Part shown: in pieces, positions 413 to 64,000 of the stretch
Numbering within the stretch: position 1 is the stretch's first letter
How the letters are laid out: every line of letters begins with the position of its first letter
Assembly (NCBI RefSeq): GCF_021917145.1
Contig: NC_061070.1
Span: 15,090,950-15,154,949, forward strand
DNA length: 64,000 nt
Direction: 5' to 3'
Source of the DNA: Hypomesus transpacificus
Taxonomy: Eukaryota > Chordata > Actinopteri > Osmeriformes > Osmeridae
The notes under the pieces: model-generated
Databases searched by the model: none
Seen by the model: the letters and a program-made list of their open reading frames with translations, nothing else
Told to the model about the DNA's origin: nothing
Program-made: the position numbers and the translations under genes

Positions 413-8319
<7,907 letters not shown>

Positions 8320-13085: not shown

Positions 13086-14554
<1,469 letters not shown>

Positions 14555-15988: not shown

Positions 15989-16750
15989 TCAGATGGAGAC
16001 CTCAGGGCCTGGATAGGGTTCCCCTCCACACCAGAAGTCTGCAGGCTGGGATATCTCCATCACCCACACTTCTTTCTGGTTTTGTGACTCTGTCTTTTTG
16101 GCCTCGGTGTCCACCACAGGGTCAAGAACTTTGTAGTAATGACAGTCCCTCTCGTCGTCTGGGTCATATGGGGGTGCCAAGATGTCAAGGAAAGCAGTCG
16201 GTCCATCTACGGCGTCGATTTGGTGAAGGTTGTCCCTGTCCGGACTCAACATACACGGTTCGCTCTCCTCGGTGTACTCTCCCGTCGACCTCAGCACAGA
16301 AAGCCTCAGTGCCCCTTTCTGGAACGGTGGGCTGAAAGGCGTGTCACTGCTGCTGGTCGCTGTTGGAAGTTTATCCACCCTATCGAAGCAGGTGATCCTG
16401 ACCTTGCCGTACATAACTTTCAACATGCCATGCATCCCCGGGTGGTCATGTAGCGGTATGGAGGCGCCGCTCTTTAGTAGAAACACTCCCATGCTAAAAG
16501 TGTCCGTTTCACATATGTGCATGTATGTGACCGGTGGGCTATGTGGTGGAGATATCGGGGAGCTGTCAACTTTTCTCGCAACGAGTTTTAGATCCTCAGC
16601 TCTAACTTCAGTCATGAGAGTCTTCAGTTTAGTTTGGTTTTCCAGGAAAGCTTTATTAGCCTCCCCCACAGCAAACGGATTTCTAAACGTAACAAGAGCC
16701 TGTCGGGCAATTTTCTTGACGAGGCAGGTCATGTTGTCTCTGGGCATCAT
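15989..16750 (-). CDS. ado: 2-aminoethanethiol (cysteamine) dioxygenase ADO
   Basis: Iron(II) thiol dioxygenase that oxidises cysteamine to hypotaurine and N-terminal cysteines of regulatory proteins to the sulfinic acid, acting as an oxygen sensor for the Cys N-degron pathway. It is a single uninterrupted 253-codon exon, as in other vertebrates. The three iron-binding histidines are visible: His101 and His103 in PLHDHPGMHG, and His176 in DNLHQID. The Cys203-Tyr205 pair in RDCHYYKV corresponds to the Cys-Tyr cross-link pair described for human ADO. A Ser/Thr-rich loop (about residues 128-140) is typical of the family's variable insertion. It lies tail-to-tail with egr2, the conserved vertebrate arrangement, so the ADO-EGR2 linkage supports both calls. 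Confidence 0.97.
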   Translation of the reverse strand: MMPRDNMTCLVKKIARQALVTFRNPFAVGEANKAFLENQTKLKTLMTEVRAEDLKLVARKVDSSPISPPHSPPVTYMHICETDTFSMGVFLLKSGASIPLHDHPGMHGMLKVMYGKVRITCFDRVDKLPTATSSSDTPFSPPFQKGALRLSVLRSTGEYTEESEPCMLSPDRDNLHQIDAVDGPTAFLDILAPPYDPDDERDCHYYKVLDPVVDTEAKKTESQNQKEVWVMEISQPADFWCGGEPYPGPEVSI

Positions 16751-17892
16751 AACGGATTGTGTAATTCCAGCAGTCCAATGCTACAAGCTCGAAGGTTGGC
16801 AAACGTGACTCATTCAATCACGCTGACTTCTGGGCTCGCGGTCAGCAAATGCTAGCTAACCAGCTAACCTTTCTGCACTTCCTCTTTAACCGACTGAAAA
16901 TGTTTGGTCTTTACCCTATATCATAAAAAATAGTACGATAACCACCATTAAGACTGATTATCAAGAAATCGGGTTTGATGTAACAACTATAGATCTCTCA
17001 TCGTCAAAACCCCATTTGAAGCTTTCTGTCAAACACGTCCGCAAAGAAAACATAGCTTACGCACCACGTACCCCATAGCAACATGGGAAATGTGGTTTGA
17101 TTCTGATATGCAAATAATGTATTTAAATCGAAAATGTTCAGATACAAATACTGCTGTCAACATTGACGTTATATATTTTTTTTAAGTAAAATTTTGCCAC
17201 AGTATGACTTGATATTGACGTTTTATTCAAATAAATAACAACTTTGCATTGCAATATTACTACAATAACCAAGATTCAGCGTCTTACGCCCCCGCTCTCT
17301 GAGCGAAATCAGGTTGTTGACCTTTTGGTCACCTACTGTGTCGTCTGAGCTACACTGGCGCATTAATTAAGAAAGGATCTCAGAACAGCAATGAAACATG
17401 TGGGAGTTGACAATTCGAGCATGTGTCATAATTCTTTACAGAAAGTGTTTTTATTCCAATATCCTCTTCTGATGAATGTATTCACGGACCCACCATCCAA
17501 GTAGCCTATTTCACATACATAATTTGAAATATGTTCAAATATGTGGTCACATGATATGAGAGTAAAATCACAATGACAGTACACAATAGGACACAGACAG
17601 ACTGAGAAGACCCCCTGTTTTCTCCTTTGTTTCATTGTGGTCTTTATCCCATCCAAACTAAACAAACAAACAAGATTAGTCACTGCAAGACTTTGTTTAT
17701 CCCAGGCCTTGTATATCCAGTAAACCCAGCCACCAGCATGTTTATCAGTTTCTTTGGAATTCCTAGAGAGCAGCAATAGTACTATAATCAGTTGTTTGTG
17801 TAGTAGAATAACATGTAGTTCCGTCCTCCATCGCAACCCTGCCCCCTCGCAGCACCCCCCTGACCCCCTCCAATAAAGTAAACACCTAGATA
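16751..17892. other. ado upstream spacer
   Basis: It contains the ado promoter and 5' leader (just above 16750) and then AT-rich sequence without a recognisable gene. At about 17280-17360, minus strand, TAGCTCAGACG matches box A and the following sequence is tRNA-like but without a good box B. It may be a decayed SINE head. Confidence 0.4.
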
Positions 17893-21595: not shown

Positions 21596-23464
21596 TCATA
21601 GCCTGCTGGTCTGCGGTGCGGCCTCCAGAACTGGTCTCTGCTGTTGCCAGGCCTGCAGTGGCCTGAAGACTGGGCCAGTCTTTCTCTTGAAGGTTGAGGA
21701 AAGGAGCGTCCCAGCTGGGTGGAGTTTATTCTGCCGTCCTGGGGACATGGAGATGACAGCTGACCTCCTCCTGGCCTGGAACCAGAACACAAGTGGGTTT
21801 CATACAGTTGATTTAAACCAGCAACAAAGCAATAGCCAAGAAGTAATCAAATAAACAATTATGTAACGAGAGAGTAAATCCTTTTACTTGGTGAATCATT
21901 ACTAATGAATGAATGTGACACAAATCGGACTGGCAACACGGCCTCCTTATGAATAATTAACATACATCATGTCCTAACCTTTATGCTTGATCACCCTCAA
22001 ACACACCGTAACAGAAAGTAGTTTCAATACACACTTTCATGAATAGATGTGCGGTTTGTCAGGGAAACTAAAGAATTATTGAATTGTCAAGTCACCAACT
22101 TGCCTGCTTTTGCTGATTCTATGAGGTCTGTTTTCACCTGTCTGATTCTCCTGGAAAGAGGAAAACCGATCAGAACATCTGTGTTTCCTGAGAATCCATC
22201 GCATATTCCTGAAATCACCCTGTATATCAATCCAGTCTGCTAGTCAGATATAAGACGTGCTGTTACCATGTAATGGTTGCTATGTGAGGTGCTGGTGGAG
22301 CTCTGGTAGTACTCCAGTAGTCTCTCAGCCAGAGCAATGCGCTGCAGCAGGTTCTCAATGAAGTGCTGGATCCGGACCTTCCCACACTGCTCCTGCTGTG
22401 CTGCAGCCTCCAGGAACCTCTGGATGGTGAGAACCTCTCTGCAGGAACAACACAACCACAACACATGGATGAACAGACATTTGATTAAAACCCCATATAC
22501 TAGTACTAACACTACCACCAATACTATTGATAAAACATTCATTAGGGTGGTTTTCCTGGCTGCTTTAAACACTGAAAAATGTTGATTAAGGGGCTGTTAA
22601 GTTCTACACTAGTCGATCCAACTAGCCATTGTAAAATCCAGCACATGCATGATTTCCCATCAATCCCACTCACTGCTCCCTCCTCTCCAGCTCGTCCTCG
22701 GACGCGTTGAGCTGTTCTCTGAGCGTGGCTATCACCATGACAGCCACATCCACCTGTCTGCTCAGCGCCTGTTCCCGTGCCAACACTTCCTGCCTCTCCT
22801 GGGCCAGGTGCTGGGAGTGGGCGCGCTCACACAGGAGCTCTGTGTCCGTCTGGGCTAGCTCGGTGCTCACCCGGGTCAGCCTCCTCTGCATGGAGCTATC
22901 TGCAGCACGCAACACACTGGCCAGCCTCCGGCGCACCGACACCTCCCCACCACAGAAGCTCTGCCCTGGGGTCATGCCCTGTGGCTGGCTGACTGGGTCT
23001 GGAGCGAGGGGAGGTGTGGGGAAGTGGACATAGTGATCTGGACTGGTGGAACTTGACTTAATGAATGGAAGTTCCGAGGTCCTGCTTGTGTGCTCCTCTT
23101 GATCCTCATCCTCAGCTTGGGCCTCTTCGTCCGCCTGCGTGCCCACACTCTGAGTGCGGCGCCTCTCAGAGCCCGTGACACTAGCGTCTCTGGTGTCGCT
23201 CAGGGAGCGCACGTGCAAGGCCTTGTGGGCGGGGGGATGCCCCCTGCGTGCGGGGAGGGGGAGACTCAGTTCTTGAGGGGAATGATAAGAGTGGCTGTAC
23301 TCCAGATGAGCTCGGAGAGAGGCCAGGCTTCGAAACCTCTCCTGCTCTCCACACCGTGGGCACCTGAACGGGAGCACTGGGGTCACCGAAGCTCCCCCAC
23401 AGGCCTGCCTGTTGTCCGGGAAGAAGGAGGACAATGTCCCTCTGGAACATGGGTTTTGCTGCAT
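21596..23464 (-). CDS. znf365: zinc finger protein 365 (Talanin/DBZ-type)
   Basis: Centrosome- and replication-stress-associated coiled-coil protein with one N-terminal C2H2-like finger; in mammals it binds DISC1 and helps maintain telomere and centrosome integrity. Three coding exons join in phase: 23464-22674, 22438-22267 and 21775-21596, for about 380 residues (human isoform A 407). It starts MQQ as in human, followed by the finger LPFRCPRCG...RFRSLASLRAHLEYSHSY. The coiled coil contains ALSRQVDVAVMVIATLR (human ALNRQVDVAVEMIAVLR), and the second exon encodes RFLEAAAQQEQ and HFIENLLQRIALAE, both strongly conserved. The last exon is only weakly similar to the human tail and is chosen on phase and a good TTCCAG acceptor, so the C-terminus is less certain. 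A donor at 24086 suggests an untranslated first exon. Its position next to ado supports the call. Confidence 0.88.
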
Positions 23465-23605
23465 CTCTCACCTGAAACACAAACATTCTTTACATCTCTC
23501 ACCTGAAACACAAACATTCTTTACATCTCTCACCTGAAACACAGACATTCTTTACATCTCTCTCCTGAAACACAGACACTCTCACCTGAAACAGACATTC
23601 TTTAC
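23462..23605. repeat. 31-bp minisatellite across the znf365 start-exon acceptor
   Basis: A 31-bp unit starting CATCTCTCACCTGAAACACA repeats at 23462, 23493, 23524 and 23555, then in shortened form to about 23605. The first unit includes the complement of the znf365 start codon and its preceding TTTCAG acceptor; each full copy therefore repeats a potential acceptor and an ATG on the minus strand. Confidence 0.9.
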
Positions 23606-28292: not shown

Positions 28293-28472
28293 GGACCAAT
28301 ACATCACGGTAACCAAGGGGACCAATACACCACGGTAACCAAGGGGACCAATACACCACGGTAACCAAGGGAACCAATACACCATGCCAACCAAGGGTAC
28401 CAATACACCATGGCAACCAAGGGGACCAATACGCCACGGTAACCAAGGGAACCAATACACCATGCCAACTTA
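28293..28472. repeat. 26-bp minisatellite in the transporter 3' region
   Basis: Seven copies of a 26-bp unit (GGACCAATACACCACGG...) in exact 26-bp register from 28293, about 110 bp downstream of the SLC22A15-like stop codon and therefore probably in its 3' untranslated region. Units differ at a few positions (GGTAACC versus GCCAACC), so the array is not freshly expanded. Confidence 0.9.
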
Positions 28473-36262: not shown

Positions 36263-36701
36263 CTAAGGTTCTGGACAGCTGGTGAACTTGGTGGGCAGGT
36301 TGTCAGTGGGGTAGACAGTGGGGCCTGTTTTCATGGTTGGGGGTCCGTTCAACAGCCTCCAGTCACATCTGGAGACCAGCTCCACACAAAGACCTTTAGC
36401 AGGACTTTGGCGAACTCTTTCCCCACACAGGTTCTGGCCCCGCCTCCAAAAGGGATGTAGCCAAAACGGGCAGAGTCTTCTGGTGACTTGTTATCCAGGA
36501 AGCGCTCCGGCTGGAACTCCTCCTTGTTGGGCAGAGCTTCCAGGACATCATGGGTGTCACAGATGCTGTAGATGACGTTCCAACCCTGGGGAATCTGGTA
36601 GCCCTGAAACAGGTCAGTTGTAGAATTTGGGAATTATTTACTGTAAAAAACCATGGGGCTACATGATGGGCCAGAAAACTCGAATTGTCACGTTCAAGTT
36701 A

Positions 36702-36732
<31 letters not shown>

Positions 36733-38738
36733 CAGTTCATACAACATTATGTTATTTATTTTATTCAGGCAAGCTTACATTTAGCTCAAAGGTTTTGAGT
36801 GCAACTCTGAAGCCCCCGGGAACAGGCGGGTTGATCCTCAGGGTCTCTTTGATGACACAGCTGGTGTACTTGAGCTGCTCCAACCGCTCCATGTCCAAGG
36901 GCTTGTCCTCTCCCTGACTTCCCATAAGATACTGTCAAATACACAGGAGAGTGTGAGGTTCTAAAGGTGGACTCTCGTGGAGTATCCATGACACTGGGTC
37001 ACAACCACCACTCCTCCCTGTAGAAATGTAAACAATAGAAATAAAATAAACATGGCACCACAGAACCATTAGGAAAAATGATGAAACTCTCTAAAAAAGA
37101 AATAAATCCGTTTAAGGACTAGGGATCCATCTAGAACACGTTTAGAGCAGATATAATGTACCTAAAGAGGGTGCCATGACATGTGGATTGAAAAAAATGG
37201 ATTGATTCCAAAACATTTCTTAGGTGATAATCGGACAACTGTTGATAATAACAGAAACCTATTTATTCACCTTTTCCTGTAACTCCTGCCGAACTTTACG
37301 CACCACGTGTGCGTGCAACCCCAGGAACATGACCATAGAGGTGGCCGTGCTAGCTGTCGTTTCATGGCCACCAAATAACAATTCTGTTGCTGATTCCTTG
37401 ATTTCCTAAAGTGTTTTTTTTAAAGAAATTACGAATACAAAAATATATATGTTCCTGTAGATATACATAATTGTGCAAAATAGAATTTGACTGGATGAAA
37501 TAACTGTACCTGCATGCTCAGTCTCTCATCGTTCTTCTCACCATTCTCTATCAATAACTGAAGAGCATCCTTATAGTTGTTGTTTTCACACGTTTTGAGA
37601 AGCTTCTTCTTGATGTTCTGCTCTATTTTGGAGTGGATGATATTGCGTGCTCTCAACCCCTACAAATGGGGGAGACAATTGACAAATTGACAATTGAAGA
37701 CAAAGCCATAGATCAATTTCGCCAGCACGCACCGAGCACCTTCAAACATTCTGATAAATAATTTGACAAACAGCATACCCGATACAATCCGCTGAAAGGA
37801 ACATCGATGGGTAAAGAGAAAAGATTCTTTGTCATTTCTTCAAACGCCTCCACTAATTCTCGCTCGTCCGCCTTTGTTTGATCCGGCTCGAACCCCAGCA
37901 AAATCCTCATCGCAATTCGGAACATGAGTCGCTTCATCTCGGGGTAGACAAAGACACAGGTGTCGCTCTGTAGCCAGCCGTCCACCGCGCCTCTCACCTC
38001 CTCCTGGATTACAGGGATATACTGCTCCAGTGCTTCCCGGGAGAACGCTTTCAAGATAGCCTACACCAAAGGAAGAGAAAGAGAATGAGAGACAGCCATA
38101 CAAGTAGACCATGATCAACATAAAGGGTTTTATTTGTACACAAAACAGATAGATACCCTTTTTTTGCTCTTGTGATGCGCGCCGTGGGCGTTGGAGAGGG
38201 TGTGCGAACCGAGGATGATTCGCACCGAGGCTGGCCACTGCGCTGCAACTAGCTTGTGCTCTGACAGGAGAATCTGCTTGACATTCTCCGAGCCCATTAT
38301 CCGCACCGTGGGACACCCAAAGAGATGGGTTTTATATATGTACCCATATTTCTGACGTTTTATTCTCAGGAACTTTCTTCTCTGGAAAATATGGAAGATG
38401 GTTGTCCTATTTTAACGACAAAAATCACTGTTTTCAATGTAAAAGAATATAGGCTACATCATTCGTTTCAAATGTGTGATGGAAAATCTGAAGCTCCTGT
38501 CGATTTTGGGTCTTAATTGGAGGAGGAGGTGGTTTCTCCATCAGTTTACCTGAAGGACCATCTGCAGCGTCTCTCCCAGTAGCGGCAGTCCCATAGTACC
38601 CGGCGGCAGCGCACCACGACAGGTTGGGTCGCATCCACTGATGACGTACATCTCCCACAGTTTCACCGCCGCCGCTATCAGCAGAAGCGGCAATACGAGA
38701 GTACAGAGGGAAGTTACAAACAGCGTGTAAAAACTCAT
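36263..38738 (-). CDS. cyp26a1: retinoic acid 4-hydroxylase CYP26A1, with a frameshift in the last exon
   Basis: Endoplasmic reticulum cytochrome P450 that inactivates all-trans retinoic acid by 4-hydroxylation. Exons: 38738-38550, 38381-38157, 38060-37779, 37659-37510, 37405-37271, 36931-36779, 36603-36263, phase-checked except for the frame break below. An N-terminal membrane anchor (LFVTSLCTLVLPLLLIAAAV) is followed by the LPPGTMGLPLLGETL proline region, the I-helix GGHETTAS, the K-helix ETLR, and the heme loop FGGGARTCVG with Cys about 437. Near 36385, after KVLLKVFV, one base is missing relative to the family (VFVVEL expected). The frame as written hits TGA at 36351-36349, giving 462 residues. 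The native frame resumes at once after the break and runs to TAG at 36263, which would give about 491 residues (zebrafish 492). The lost segment includes the TMKTGPTVYP substrate-contact strand. Single-base sequencing or assembly error is the likeliest cause. Confidence 0.95.
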
Positions 38739-38855: not shown

Positions 38856-38907
38856 AGTCCGTTTTCCAGTCACTCTTGGCCCCATCTTACCTTGGTCAAG
38901 ACAAATT

Positions 38908-38924
38908 AGTTCACACAAAGTTCA
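38908..38924 (+). promoter_or_regulatory. cyp26a1: proximal DR5 retinoic acid response element of cyp26a1
   Basis: AGTTCA-CACAA-AGTTCA: two RAR/RXR half-sites as a direct repeat with a five-base spacer. It is nearly identical to the R1 element of mammalian CYP26A1 promoters and lies 53 bp from the TATA box, as expected for the element that makes the gene retinoic-acid inducible. Confidence 0.9.
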
Positions 38925-38956
38925 TCTTTAATTGGGATACTGGGCTCGCGCACCGT

Positions 38957-38966: not shown

Positions 38967-39446
38967 TAGCGGACTAGCAGAAATGTTAACTGTTTCCTGG
39001 AGGAAGGCGGTATGATGCGCTATAGCTGTAGGCTTCTACTTCCACCCTACTACACCCCCTTAGCCTTCTAAATAACTTAACTTAATAAATACAAAACGAA
39101 AATATTAGATATTGGTCACATGAATAGAAGAATGCACATTGCTAATCTGTAAATTGTTGTGGATGTGTTTTGTCTTATGTAGGAAACACTGTAAGAGATA
39201 TTACAGTCGAAATTGACCAGTCCCTTTCAATATGATAGATAATATGCGAAAACAATATCCGCCATCTATGATAATGCCCACAGGCCAGTTATTTTAGTTT
39301 AATTGAACGGTAATAAATACATTTGTGGAGCAGTTGGTCTTCATGATATCTCTGTGATGCATCACGGTAAACCTTGTTTTTACACCAATGGGAGGACGGC
39401 GGGGGCTCGCTCTCTTGCTCATTTAATCGTGAGGGCGCTCGAGCTC

Positions 39447-39463
39447 TGACCTGTATGTGACCT
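39447..39463 (-). promoter_or_regulatory. cyp26a1: distal DR5 retinoic acid response element of cyp26a1
   Basis: On the minus strand AGGTCA-CATAC-AGGTCA: both half-sites are the exact consensus with a five-base spacer. It lies about 0.6 kb upstream of the TATA box. Mammalian and zebrafish cyp26a1 also use a second upstream element (R2) together with R1. A weaker DR5-like pair (TGACAT, five bases, TGAACT) follows at 39477-39493. Confidence 0.8.
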
Positions 39464-39499
39464 ACGACACGGACCATGACATCCGTGTGAACTTCAGTG

Positions 39500-41246
39500 C
39501 AAAACGTCGCCAAGTTCACTCTCTGGATAACAAGGCACCAAGGTCCTATGGTGCACATAATTAGAGGGGGTTTGTATTTGTCCTCACTCTTCCGGGCTAT
39601 TCTTCGACTGTCAATCATAGCAATCAAGTTTAGGGCACACTGGTGACCTGTGTCAAAGAAAGAGGTCAATAGCGTTTAAAGTGGGCCTCATCATGTGCTG
39701 AATATTTGTAGTAGGCCTATATTTTGTTCAAGAATATAGCTAACTGTAATACGTTTGTATATCGTCAAAATGGAAAGACAGTTTTTTTCCAAAGAAGTAC
39801 AATACGTACAGAAGTACAATGAATACAAATCATAATTTTAAGAATTTAAATTTAAGAACCAATTTACGTAAAGGAAAAAATATTTTACTATATATAGGCC
39901 TATTTTTTTTATTTTTTTTAACCTGTCATGACGTTAGCTTAGGCAACTTTTTGTTGCATTTTGTTACTGTCAAAATTATGCTTGGGGCAAGTACAATGGT
40001 GTACAACCGCTTGTGGATTTTTACGAAAAGCCTATGATTTTGGCTGCCATTTAAGATTACCTTTCCTTGCAGGGTAACTGCCTAATCTTAAAACAAATTG
40101 TGTTATTCAGAACATAAATATGTATTAGTCTATGAACATGAAAGAATTCAAAGGATAATTAGGCCTCTTCAAGAATAATTAGCCTAAATATGTGACACAT
40201 TTCACGTTCAAACCAACATATCATATAAAAAAAGATTTGATAACAGCTAGACTAACTAAATGGATTTAGTCCATTTTGACTGTTAAACCACGTTAACGTG
40301 ATGGTTAAATTATTCACAAGCAAAACTCACTAATATTCAGTTATTTACTTCTCACAACAACAATTTCACTACAGTACAAATAATAACAGCCAATTACAAA
40401 TAACATGTAGGCTATGAACAACAGGACAATTAGGCAATGTACAAACTCCATAAAGGAGAAAAAGTGCTATCTCCTTCCATGAAAACATTAATCAGATAAT
40501 TTCACAGCGCTTCAATTATACCTACATAATCCACAAGTGATTATGAATAACAATGAAGACAATAACAAATTAGTAATAATAATAATAATTATGCAAATAT
40601 GTCTAATAAAATAGCTGAATTATTATAAACTAAACTGTATTGGCGTTCATAGCCATTGCACTACAAAAATAGAAAAATTAAGCTATAGCATATCCTTTAA
40701 ATATGGCTGTATAATAAAGTAATCAATTCTAGCTTTAAAAAAATGTTATAGGGCTTATACAATGCTCTTTAAATAAAGCTTATGTAATGCTTCTTCATTT
40801 AATACATACCCTAATGGATAAGATTATATCACATTATACGCACACACTGAGCATAAACATTTAAAATGGCATTCCTGGATATATTGGTAAAGATCAAGTG
40901 CAAGATCTGTTTTGCATTGGACTTGTGTAGACTAACTAAGCAGACCTGAGCAGCCAAGACAGTGATATTAGTCCACTTCCTTGGACTTTTCTTGTTACGT
41001 TCCAGAGGTGGGCGTGCAGGTGTCCATAAGAGTTCAGCCACTTAAAACAATGATGCAGAAAAACGATGCGTCTCCTCAGGTCACCAAAGTATACGCCTGC
41101 ATTGGTTCCATTCAACAAGGATTTGTTGGTCCAATAATATTCCAAGCTCTTCTGGACAGTGATACTATAGTTATTGGTATTATACTCTGATTCAATAACT
41201 TAAATGTGTTGTAGAAGACAGGTGTGATACTCCCTGCCCGGTGCCT
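39500..41246. other. cyp26c1-cyp26a1 spacer
   Basis: AT-rich DNA between the cyp26c1 stop codon and the cyp26a1 upstream region. It should hold the cyp26c1 3' untranslated region and possible shared enhancers. No exon or repeat family is recognised; an everted pair of receptor half-sites (TGACCT ... AGGTCA) lies at about 39643-39667. Confidence 0.5.
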
Positions 41247-44200
41247 CTAAACTGCATCTGTGTGTGCGTAACTAAAATGCACGTGCAGCCCGTTGACAGG
41301 ATGGACAATTGGAACAGTTTGCATCTTGGGGAACGATTCTGTGGCCAGGCTCCACCTGCATGTGCTGAGCAGCTCGACCGCCAGGGTTTTTAATATCATC
41401 AGGGCTAGTTCCTTACCGACGCACCTCCTAACACCACCTCCAAATGGAACGTAATTGAAACGCCCTGTCTTGCCCTCGTCACGCTCACTCCCAAAGCGGT
41501 CGGGGTCGAATCTCTCCGGGTTGTGAAACACTGGGGCGGTGTCGTGGGTGTCTCGTATGCTGTACATCACGCTCCACCCTTTAGGGATCTGGTAACCCTG
41601 GTCAAGACAAACACAAATATACAATCAATGTTTTTCTATGAACTATTAGCTTTTTTTCAGTTACGTAATAAGTTATAGGAACAAATGATTAAACACAAAA
41701 TTTATGTTGACCCGTTTTATCCAAATCTAAGTCTATGGAATCCAATGTACCCATCCCAAATATCATATGGAGTTTAAATGGTACCTCCTAATTGACCCCA
41801 TTCTCATCTAGCTAACCCATTCCCTCTTCAGAGGGGTTTGTGTGTTTAGGAATCCGGTCACATGTAGAGATACAAGGTATGGGAGATGCATGTGAGCGCA
41901 CACTGACAATGGGTCTGTGAACACACCTCCAATTACTTTCAGAGAAAGACAGAAATGGTGTTATGTTTGTGCTGTGCGACTACCCCAGTCTAGAAGAAAG
42001 CCATTTGATTAAATGTGTTGGCTGAAATACAGGGTGAAGTAAGGTAAACCATTCAAGATGGGGCTATTTGCCATATACGATCTCAGTACAAGAGAGGCAT
42101 ACTTACATCCAATTCAAATGTCTTGAGCACGGTTCTGTATCCGCCGGATACCGGGGGGAGAACACGGAGCACCTCCTTGATTACACAGCTAACGTACTGC
42201 AGCTGACTCAGTTTTTCCATCGTTAGATAAGGTGTGTGGGACCGAGATGTAGGTTTCTCTTCATCGGAGGCGCCGTGAACATTCCCTTTCCCATTGAGCA
42301 ATGAGGTGGTCTCTGTGTCTGGGCTCCCGTGGGCATCTTGTGTGGTTTCCAAAGGGCCTTTTAAATCCCCCTCTTTGCCTGGGCAGCTGTGTGCTCTATG
42401 GGCCTCGTAACCCAGCCCCTCCGTCTCCAGCTCCTGTTGGGCTTTCTCCACAACCGCAGGGTGCTTCAGGAGCTGGAGGACAAGGGAGGTGGAGGCACTG
42501 GCAGTGGTAGAGTGAGCTGCAAATATCAACTCAACCGCTGTCTCCTAGAAAACGCAAACACACACACATACACACGTGTTAAGACTGTAGTATTCCGTCG
42601 TAAAATAAACAGTAATGGCCTATTTGCTTGTTAATATTTTCCCTAAGAAGCAACTGAGATAATAGCTACTATTAAACGGATTAACAACTCCTGTAAGTAA
42701 ACCAGCCCCCTCCTTCCCCCACACCGCCTGATGTGACCTACCTTCAACTCCTGGATACTGAGTTCATACCCAGTCTCCTTGGCACTGCTTAGCATGTAAT
42801 CAAATGCATCATAGTACTCTTCCGTGTGTTGCCTCTGCATCTTTTCCTCAATGATTTTCTCCATGCACTTGTGAAGGATTTCACGCGCTTTTATTCCCTA
42901 TGCAGAGATAAATCATAACAGGTTTTAGAAATAATACATTTGGGGCCCCAAGGGAAGGCATGACAGTACCAAAACGTACTGAAAAAAAAAAGTACCATTA
43001 ATTTAATAATTGGCGCAAGCTATATCCACACACTCCAAATTGTCAAATTTGAGGCTTTAATGAGACATAACATCTGCCTGTATTTAGATGTGATGTTACT
43101 ACTTTTTGTCATGCAAAAGCAAGATGAAGTCTAGAATTCATGAACAACAGAATCAAATCAAACATCTCGTTATATGCCCCCTTTATATCTAAATAAAATG
43201 TTACTTGTATAGACCTTTCTACACAGTGCCACAGGGGGCTTCACTGATGCCCACAGATCAGCACCTATAACCAACCTAAACGTCTATACTGGACTCACCT
43301 TGCGGAGTCCACTCATGGGTGCATCAAAAGGAAGAGAGAAAAGGTTGTTCATGAGTTGCTCGAATATTTGAGCAAGGTAAACAATGCGTGTCTCCTCCAT
43401 TTGTAGACCCAGCAGGACTTTTACAGCGATTCGAAATGTGAGAGATTTTGCTGCGGCGTAGACATCCACTGCGCCGGGCTCTGAGCACCACTTTGCAATT
43501 TCAGACTTGACAACATCTTGCAAGCGGGGCAGGTAAGACTCCAGCGCCCCGCGGCTAAACACTTTTGCCAAGATCTTAAAGAGAAGCATAATAAAAAGTT
43601 ATCACCAGGTACAAGACATGATGGTATAGAATAATACTGGAAACGAATTCACTCCAAACGTTCGCTAATTCTACATTCAAGGCCCATCTATTATGGTAAC
43701 GGACCAATTTGATTTATATTTGATAACGACAGAGCTTGTACGCAACCTTGCTGTTTTCTTCATTATTCTTTAACTCATAGTCTTTATGTTCTTACTTTTC
43801 TCTTTTTCTTGTGAAGATCTCCGATGGAGTTGACCAGCGTGTTTGGTCCTAGAATGATCCGGGTGCTCTGCGGCCATTGAGTGCACACCAAGTTGTGTTC
43901 CCCCAGCAGAATTTTTCGGATGTTCTCGGCGCCAGTCACCCGGACTAGGGGCTTTCCAAGAAGGTGAGTTTTAAAAACATTCCCGTGCTTCTTTCTCCTG
44001 GAGATGTGAAAGTTGGACCCCTGTCATGAACACAGATATGGATGTTTTTAATTTCAAGTGCTCTGAAACAAAGAAAGCCCCGTGGATTCCTAAACTAGGC
44101 CTACTCCATGTCTTGGCACATGCAGAAGCGGCGAGAAATTTAAACAAAAACGTCTGTTTTTACCACAAGTAATTTACACGCGCTCATCAAGTCTACACAT

Positions 44201-44629
44201 GTTACAGTTTCATGAGTTCCAAGAACAATCTCTATTTCATCACAAGTTGAATTATTAATTGGATATTTAATCCAACATGTGGCACAAGACAAACAACGCT
44301 GATCTTTGTGAGAATACATCACCTTGCCAAATGTTAAGTGATTAAGGAGCAAATGATGATTGAACAAGACATATTTTGGAAGCCTTGTAAAAACAAACTC
44401 AGTGAAATTAAGTTCTTTAACATACCTGAAAGAGCCAATGGAAAGTTTCCCCCACTAGAGGCCACCCCATGGAGCCCTTGGGCAGCGGCAAATTGCACTC
44501 CTTGTCCCGCGTAATGGTCCAGCGGAGAGCCCACAGTTGCTTGGTGACGGCCAGCAGCAGCAGGGCTGAGAATACTGATGTGAGCGCAGTGGCCAGCGCT
44601 GACACGACGCTGAGCTCCGGGAGAAACAT
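41247..44629 (-). CDS. cyp26c1: retinoic acid hydroxylase CYP26C1, complete
   Basis: Microsomal P450 that clears all-trans and 9-cis retinoic acid; in fish embryos it acts with cyp26a1 and cyp26b1 in the hindbrain. Six exons join in phase: 44629-44426, 44020-43796, 43574-43299, 42897-42742, 42544-42107, 41597-41247; 549 residues (zebrafish 554). An N-terminal anchor ([18 protein letters not shown]) is followed by [19 protein letters not shown], the I-helix AAHSTTAS, the K-helix EVLR, and the heme loop [10 protein letters not shown]. Exon 5 holds a CYP26C1-type hydrophilic insertion of about 60 residues ([16 protein letters not shown]... to SRSHTPYL) at the place where cyp26a1 has an intron between its exons 5 and 6. 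No frame breaks were found. It lies head-to-tail upstream of cyp26a1 on the same strand, the conserved vertebrate order. Confidence 0.97.
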
Positions 44630-62111: not shown

Positions 62112-64000
62112 GGATTTAAGCTGAAGAGATTCTGCATGCCATTTAAAAATGTTACTTGTGTCCCAAATTTGAATTGGGACTAATCGGCTTACTAATTTAT
62201 GGAATTGGGGTTCTATAGGGATATGCAGCAGTCTGATGACTAGTAAAAAGACCCTGTGTCAGGGGAAGAGAGGTAGAATTACAGTGCTTTGTTCCTCTGA
62301 GGTTCCGCACGTCCAACTCAGGTCACCAGGAGGAAAAGTGCCACAACTCATCCATCCCATTGGCAGGTGTAGTCATCCAACATTCTGACCTGTGGGGATT
62401 CAGGCATCCGGGGCTGATTAGGCCATGTCCTGGCGCCGTCATTAGTCCACAGTGGAGACACTCATCTTCATGGGCAGACACAGTGCTGCTAATTGCCTCA
62501 ATTTGGAGGAAGGCCTGTGACAGTTCAATGGCGATGAAGGGCACACACAAGGTCAATTGTCTTGCCTCTGAATAGTAAACTAATTTCTGATGTGTTATGA
62601 TTGACTAAATAGGCATTAATGAACCAGGAACGGTCATTATTTTCAAGTTCAGAGAGTACTCTCTCCAGACGGGCTCTATTCCTCCTCGCTGCACCATCGT
62701 CATTTAAGAAATCATAGCATTTTAACTTTCGTCATTTGCACGTCACTTAAGTTACAGTACTAACATTTGGGGAGTGACTTTACATAAAAGCAGTTGCCAA
62801 CAATTGGACCGTCTCAGATAAATGACTTTCTGGAAAGCCTTGTGTGTAAAATAACGCGAAAATCATGGAACTCATGGAAGACAACAATTAGTGTGGAGCG
62901 TTGTGTGGGAAGAGGGGAGAGAGAGAGGGGAAGGCCAGTGTGTGTGTGTGAGAGCGGGCAGGTCGGCAGGATGGGGCTGCTGGTGTGAATGGGTTTGACA
63001 GAAGGAGGCTGTGTGCAGTCTGCTCAGGACACACCAGTGGTGGCACGTTTAACCGTGGAACCTGCTAGCCAATCACCTTCCCCCCATTTGGCCTGTCACC
63101 CCACATCAGTGGGGTCAAGGGGCGCCACACAGTTAATGAGGCCTCGCTTCCAACGCACCCTTCAACTCCCACCAAGCCCCGGCTTAAAGTTGGTTGCACA
63201 GGAAAAACGTCAAACTCACAATCAAACTAACAGTCCTCCTCTGCTTCTGTCTACCTCCAAATGTTATCTTTCCACACAGACCGATTTACTTTGAAACTTT
63301 GAGGTTCTGTAAAAATAATATCAGTTTTGTTCGACAATTAAGTCCACAATACCCCGCTGTAACTGTTCACCCTTGTAATCAGATCATGCTTGATGAGGAG
63401 TCACGAACAAAGCCATGCAAATTCTAATTAAATCTGCAGCGTTGGTACAGGCTTGTTTGATCGCCAGGCTCTTTCATGCACCCTAATCACTCCTGACAGA
63501 CCCTTCCAACAGATTCTGTGACAAACTTCTCAATTTTACTGGGGGATTTTTGAACTTTGCTTGCTCCTCCGGGTCTGTCAAACAATTCAAATCAATGACC
63601 CAATTGACCACTGGTCCCCTTGTTGATAACCTCAATGAGCTCTATGTGCCATTCTTTGTCTGGGGCGAAATGCCGATAGCATTTTCTGGTAATTAAATGT
63701 CCGTTTCGCGCTCAATACAAACACTGGATGGCTGGTTCACATCAAAACCCCCGGAGCATAGTGAAGGGCTGGTGGGGGGGCAGAGATGCAGGTGCAGAGG
63801 GGTTGGGAAGGGGGAGTTAGGAGGCATGACGGGACTTTCCCACATTCTGACGCAGGACTCATTAGGTCACCATAATAAGGAAGCAGTTTTTTGTTTTTAT
63901 TAAAAATCTCATTCATTCGCCAACAATGACAGGCCACTGACCTCATTGATGCCCTAGCTACTCCCTTGTTATCTGAATATCCCGTGTAGAATGGAACGTC

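Follow-up and report, generated by a model that had tools for sequence, protein, structure and literature searches.

Background

The zebrafish is reported with one cyp26a1, located on Dre12 with Pde6c as a conserved neighbour, and with a cyp26c1 located on Dre17 next to Tbc1d12 (PMC3769385). The Dre12 and Dre17 regions are described as paralogons of the teleost genome duplication that went through a reciprocal loss, cyp26a1 having disappeared from Dre17 and cyp26c1 from Dre12; in medaka the two genes are likewise placed on separate chromosomes, cyp26a1 on Ola19 and cyp26c1 on Ola15 (PMC3769385). For the mangrove killifish, one each of CYP26A1, B1 and C1 is described (PMC5751882). Regarding regulation, Cyp26a1 is presented with a response element close to its start site, further ones lying some 2 kb off (PMC7151129). 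Regarding structure, the cyanobacterial CYP120A1 (2ve3) has been used as the template of a CYP26A1 model (PMC6274249).

We analysed a stretch of 64,000 nucleotides of the Hypomesus transpacificus genome, hereafter the window, which contains a cyp26a1 gene with a broken reading frame. The contig that holds it is called C11, where the window occupies 15090950-15154949, and a second contig, carrying a paralogous region, is called C13. With a probability of about 0.8, we consider that an ancient duplication left two cyp26a1 copies, of which the window carries the second, and that the frame of this copy was broken very recently.

Results and discussion

Gene model and position of the frame break

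The window cyp26a1 spans positions 36263..38738 on the minus strand. Its gene model comprises seven exons (38738-38550, 38381-38157, 38060-37779 and 37659-37510 for exons 1 to 4; 37405-37271, 36931-36779 and 36603-36263 for exons 5 to 7) of 189, 225, 282, 150, 135, 153 and 341 bases, respectively, separated by six AG/GT introns that are all in phase 0. The gene is recognised by Pfam p450, exon 7 alone giving a match of 85 residues with an E-value of 2.6e-19. The protein carries an FGGGxRxCVGKE haem-cysteine loop, an ETLR sequence (ExxR) and a GGHETT in the I-helix, which we take as motifs of a CYP26A1-type P450.

The spliced coding sequence is 1475 nt long and indivisible by 3. The initial frame stays open for 451 codons, up to a GTG at 36387-36385. 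This is the last good codon of the frame break (36383..36387, minus strand), in which bases 36384-36383 are surplus. Reading on through this point, exon 7 gives KVLLKVFV, then WSWSPDVTGGC, and then a TGA (36349..36351, minus strand) that closes the shifted frame within the last exon. The family frame picks up at 36382 in the neighbouring frame, with ELVSRCDWRLLNGPPTMKTGPTVYPTDNLPTKFTSCPEP, and continues to the TAG at 36263. This C-terminal segment (36263..36382, minus strand) amounts to 39 codons plus the stop, and 27 of its 39 residues are identical to those of the intact copy on C13, which leads us to reject a chance resumption of the family frame. The C13 copy aligns over the break with no further gap adjoining it, and the break lies outside any homopolymer longer than 3 bases. 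The window copy, in this one assembly, is devoid of a single open frame through the C-terminal strand and contains a disabling lesion.

These results agree with most of the original prediction, which had named the gene as cyp26a1, placed the break after KVLLKVFV and the stop at TGA 36351-36349 with correct coordinates, seen the family sequence resume in the neighbouring frame up to TAG 36263, described the remaining six exons as clean and anticipated that the shifted frame loses the TMKTGPTVYP strand. It had mentioned neither the adjoining cyp26c1 nor the duplication of the block, and its main argument on the origin of the break failed, as detailed below.

A second cyp26a1 and two cyp26c1-cyp26a1 tandems

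The genome (437 Mb, 376 contigs) was searched with 501 bases around exon 7. Two places were matched: the window and C13:11543366-11543687, the latter at 75% identity over query bases 95-418. On C13, the cyp26a1 gene is complete: its seven exons (189, 225, 282, 150, 135, 153 and 339 bases) encode 490 amino acids in an unbroken frame. The lethality of cyp26a1 loss in zebrafish had been put forward as the main ground for regarding the break as an artefact or a heterozygous null allele. This ground does not hold in a genome with an intact C13 copy, thanks to which even a homozygous break of the window copy could be tolerated.

An intact cyp26c1 of six exons and 549 amino acids is found upstream of the window cyp26a1, on the same strand (41247..44629, minus). 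On C13, a complete cyp26c1 of 553 amino acids (C13:11535182-11537781) similarly lies upstream of cyp26a1, so that the cyp26c1-cyp26a1 tandem is present on both contigs. Among the four tandem genes the window cyp26a1 is the sole broken one; the three others total 4785 coding bases, stops included, with zero frame breaks. The names A1 and C1 are our own assignment, guided by gene order. Protein identity is 363/489 within the A1 pair and 355/540 within the C1 pair, against 197 to 221 of 486 or 487 between A1 and C1 proteins. In particular, the window A1 is nearer to the C13 A1 than to either C1 (218/487 and 197/486).

In a relative rate comparison of the two cyp26c1 genes, the C13 copy displays 31 unique changes and the window copy 14 (chi-square 6.4). 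Judged from these sequences, the C13 cyp26c1 seems to evolve faster.

Age and collinearity of the duplicated block

The NG86 method yielded a dN of 0.166 for the A1 pair and 0.257 for the C1 pair and no finite dS for either. Between the two A1 copies, 268 of 489 third positions differ. We then ran a nucleotide comparison between the two contigs, using 164 kb from C11 and 160 kb from C13 (of which 7500 bases are N) and accepting E-values up to 1e-5. Among the 37 blastn matches, 18 belong to one collinear set in opposite orientation, running from window position 36283 to 63745. The set touches all 13 exons of both genes as well as the promoter of cyp26a1, a block upstream of it and two blocks of non-coding sequence. 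Two others are cross-matches between A1 and C1, while the remaining 17 resemble repeats, either dispersed or simple. On C13, at about 11590150 and 11602650, we observed N runs of exactly 2500 and 5000 bases, which may be assembly gaps of rounded size.

A frame-by-frame comparison of the same 164 kb and 160 kb matched no protein-coding pair beyond the cyp26 genes; the matches that it returned outside them correspond to the non-coding block and to repeat-like families from several places of C11. The two regions behave as collinear paralogons of old divergence, as expected for ohnologs, their common content being cyp26a1, cyp26c1 and the non-coding blocks. The window and C13 cyp26 pairs are old and most likely stem from the teleost genome duplication. 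This age, like the paralogon assignment discussed below, draws on the saturation of synonymous sites, on synteny in the vicinity and on a single paper.

Response elements and conserved non-coding blocks

Two DR5 retinoic-acid response elements were found ahead of the window cyp26a1, a layout similar to that described for Cyp26a1 (PMC7151129). The proximal one (AGTTCA-5-AGTTCA, 38908..38924, plus strand) falls in a 32-base block, 38903-38934, which is identical in both copies and matched by blastn. The distal one (AGGTCA-5-AGGTCA, 39447..39463, minus strand) falls in the upstream block 39440-39523, 81% identical between copies. Both are aligned with C13 counterparts, for a number of DR5 expected by chance of 0.003 and 0 on average (300 shuffles each). 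The window cyp26a1 would produce an RA-inducible retinoic-acid hydroxylase alongside the C13 copy. The cyp26c1-cyp26a1 intergenic stretch measures 2508 bases in the window versus 3426 on C13, where it holds two extra DR5 without a counterpart in the window; the DR5 set of the window copy may therefore be reduced.

The larger conserved non-coding element (63311..63745) shows 79% identity over 452 columns with an exoc6 intron on C13. A second one (62533..62660, 76% over 128) corresponds to another exoc6 intron and is collinear with the first. Both blocks sit between C13 exoc6 exons at offsets 54251, 56043, 56808 and 57685, the gene being called by Pfam EXOC6_Sec15_N and Sec15_C. The idea of a shared protein-coding gene at 62.5-63.7 kb of the window was dropped, as the match is at the DNA level, open on both strands and located in exoc6 introns. 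No exoc6 exon was matched on C11 when forward frames of at least 30 codons were compared with the 164 kb, a search from which shorter exons could escape, and the frames of the C13 exoc6 stretch gave three hits on C11, all on the larger non-coding block. The exoc6 exons seem to have been lost from the compared part of C11 while the intronic elements were kept, and the two blocks fit long-range cyp26 enhancers that outlasted their host gene.

Paralogon assignment

A TBC-domain exon (RabGAP-TBC, E-value 3.6e-7) is located 4 kb beyond the right-hand end of the window, at positions 3982-4371 of the flanking C11 stretch, and no counterpart of it was matched in the compared C13 stretch. We infer that it belongs to tbc1d12. 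Because of this neighbour, a single exon with an inferred gene name, the window probably represents the Dre17-type paralogon and its cyp26a1 the copy lost by zebrafish and medaka.

Elsewhere in the window we noted an EGR N-terminal domain with zinc fingers (13538-14551, plus strand), a PCO_ADO dioxygenase (15992-16780, minus strand), an FBX41-type zinc finger (22673-23467, minus strand) and a kinesin motor (6112-6450 and 7103-7318, minus strand), presumably egr2, ado, znf365 and kif11. Two minisatellites were also observed, at 28293-28462 (26-base unit, 6.5 copies) and 23462-23582 (31-base unit, 3.9 copies).

Constraint on the window copy

Using both C1 proteins as outgroups, we counted 16 unique amino-acid changes in the window A1 and 13 in the C13 A1 (chi-square 0.31), equal rates for the two copies. 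Of the 184 sites at which the three intact genes do not vary, the window A1 keeps 167, and one of its 17 misses is the break; for the reverse control, the C13 A1 keeps 167 of 180. Identity between the A1 copies is 27/39 past the break and 336/450 ahead of it, a difference without significance (Fisher P 0.45). The corresponding region of the C1 pair, in which both genes are intact, has diverged more than the rest (20/40 vs 334/497, P 0.036). The dN of the A1 pair is nominally higher past the break (0.274 v 0.157, over 39 and 450 codons, respectively).

Overall, one lesion was found in 1475 nt, and neither a clear relaxation of constraint nor further lesions, as a pseudogene would be expected to accumulate, accompany it. 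The window cyp26a1 shows no clear decay beyond the break; it would have been fully constrained until very recently, and perhaps still is. With constraint kept, we rejected an old pseudogene, in line with the original prediction, which had held a true pseudogene to be the less likely option.

Predicted effect of the break

The C-terminal part of P450 enzymes is needed both for the fold and for substrate contact, and a stop codon in the last exon is not expected to trigger nonsense-mediated decay. Since the TGA lies in the last exon, the window cyp26a1 message should escape this decay. It would give a protein of 462 residues in which the last 40 of about 491 are swapped for 11 unrelated ones; this product would keep the haem-cysteine loop and lose the C-terminal strand near the substrate. 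Given the requirement of P450s for their C-terminal part, it would almost surely be inactive. CYP120A1 (2ve3) aligns with residues 42-484 of the intact 490-residue copy, most of the lost part included.

Sequencing error or recent loss

The odds between an indel and a null allele given here are a matter of judgement and were not computed. That the second cyp26a1 works fully and the break is an indel from assembly or sequencing stands at slightly better than even. The window copy is otherwise well kept, in its coding sequence and splice borders as in its promoter and upstream element, and one lesion without a second is the pattern expected from an error. Against it, the 4785 coding bases of the three other CYP26 genes are unbroken, a sample that bounds the error rate only loosely, and no homopolymer tract of more than 3 bases is present at the break. 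A real and very young null of the window cyp26a1, either segregating or fixed, has a chance just short of even, the intact duplicate having removed the objection to a real loss. A null allele segregating in the population and tolerated via the C13 copy is, taken by itself, unlikely: this duplicate is intact and has the same two response elements, and relaxed constraint has left no clear trace, as for a very young allele, but the exon-7 query matched the paralog alone besides the window and no second haplotype. That the gene is a fixed, very young pseudogene, the first step of a loss already completed in zebrafish and medaka, we regard as rather improbable. It would be redundant with the C13 copy and probably belongs to the paralogon from which cyp26a1 is reported to have been lost; however, this would mean observing a copy that had survived from the teleost duplication onwards just shortly after its first lesion, and a second lesion and a rate increase are both absent.

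Two further explanations of the break were weighed. A functional shifted frame, by programmed frameshifting or through a shortened working enzyme, is very improbable. The last-exon stop would presumably leave the message stable, but the family frame past the break is still conserved (27/39), the C13 copy needs no shift and the alignment with CYP120A1 (2ve3) extends across the segment that is lost, up to residue 484/490; programmed frameshifting was rejected on these grounds. A misread structure, with the break inside an unrecognised intron, has a negligible probability: homology with the C13 copy is continuous on either side of the break without extra sequence, and the C13 exon 7 is unbroken. 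The continuity of this alignment with the intact copy led us to reject a hidden intron.

Significance and comparison with known systems

The survival of all four duplicates is more interesting than the break itself. Ohnolog loss is usually observed long afterwards. If the break is real, it would document a late and repeated loss of the duplicate of a key developmental enzyme, with its main response elements still present and probably in the paralogon that has already lost it in other teleosts; even if it is a base-call error, a genome with two cyp26a1 and two cyp26c1 provides a test of divided retinoic-acid clearance. It is possible, yet doubtful, that all four tandem products survived from the teleost duplication to the present and that the window displays the first inactivating step of the cyp26a1 loss seen in zebrafish and medaka, at a time when coding constraint and response elements are still fresh. 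Among the listed open-access papers on duplicated, paralogous or pseudogenised cyp26a1 in fishes, no title or abstract start describes a teleost with two copies each of cyp26a1 and cyp26c1, which weakly suggests that such a set of four genes is unreported.

Compared with the described systems, the window cyp26a1 shares with the zebrafish and medaka genes (Dre12, Ola19) a CYP26A1-type, retinoic-acid-degrading product and a location in one of the paralogons that arose from the teleost duplication; it differs from these single genes in being a second copy, beside cyp26c1 and probably in the other paralogon, where both species are reported to lack cyp26a1 (PMC3769385). The mangrove killifish CYP26A1 likewise has seven exons and a similar length (1467 nt), but one A1 and one C1 are described there (PMC5751882), whereas the Hypomesus genome has two of each. 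With giraffe, the zebrafish cyp26a1 null, the likeness would reside in the loss of CYP26A1 function (PMC7151129). The difference is that zebrafish is reported without a second cyp26a1 (PMC3769385), whereas the Hypomesus genome has an intact one; zebrafish lethality is thus a poor ground for dismissing broken genes in other fishes. Finally, CYP120A1 (2ve3) is the nearest solved relative by sequence, and the last part of its fold would be missing from the shifted-frame product.
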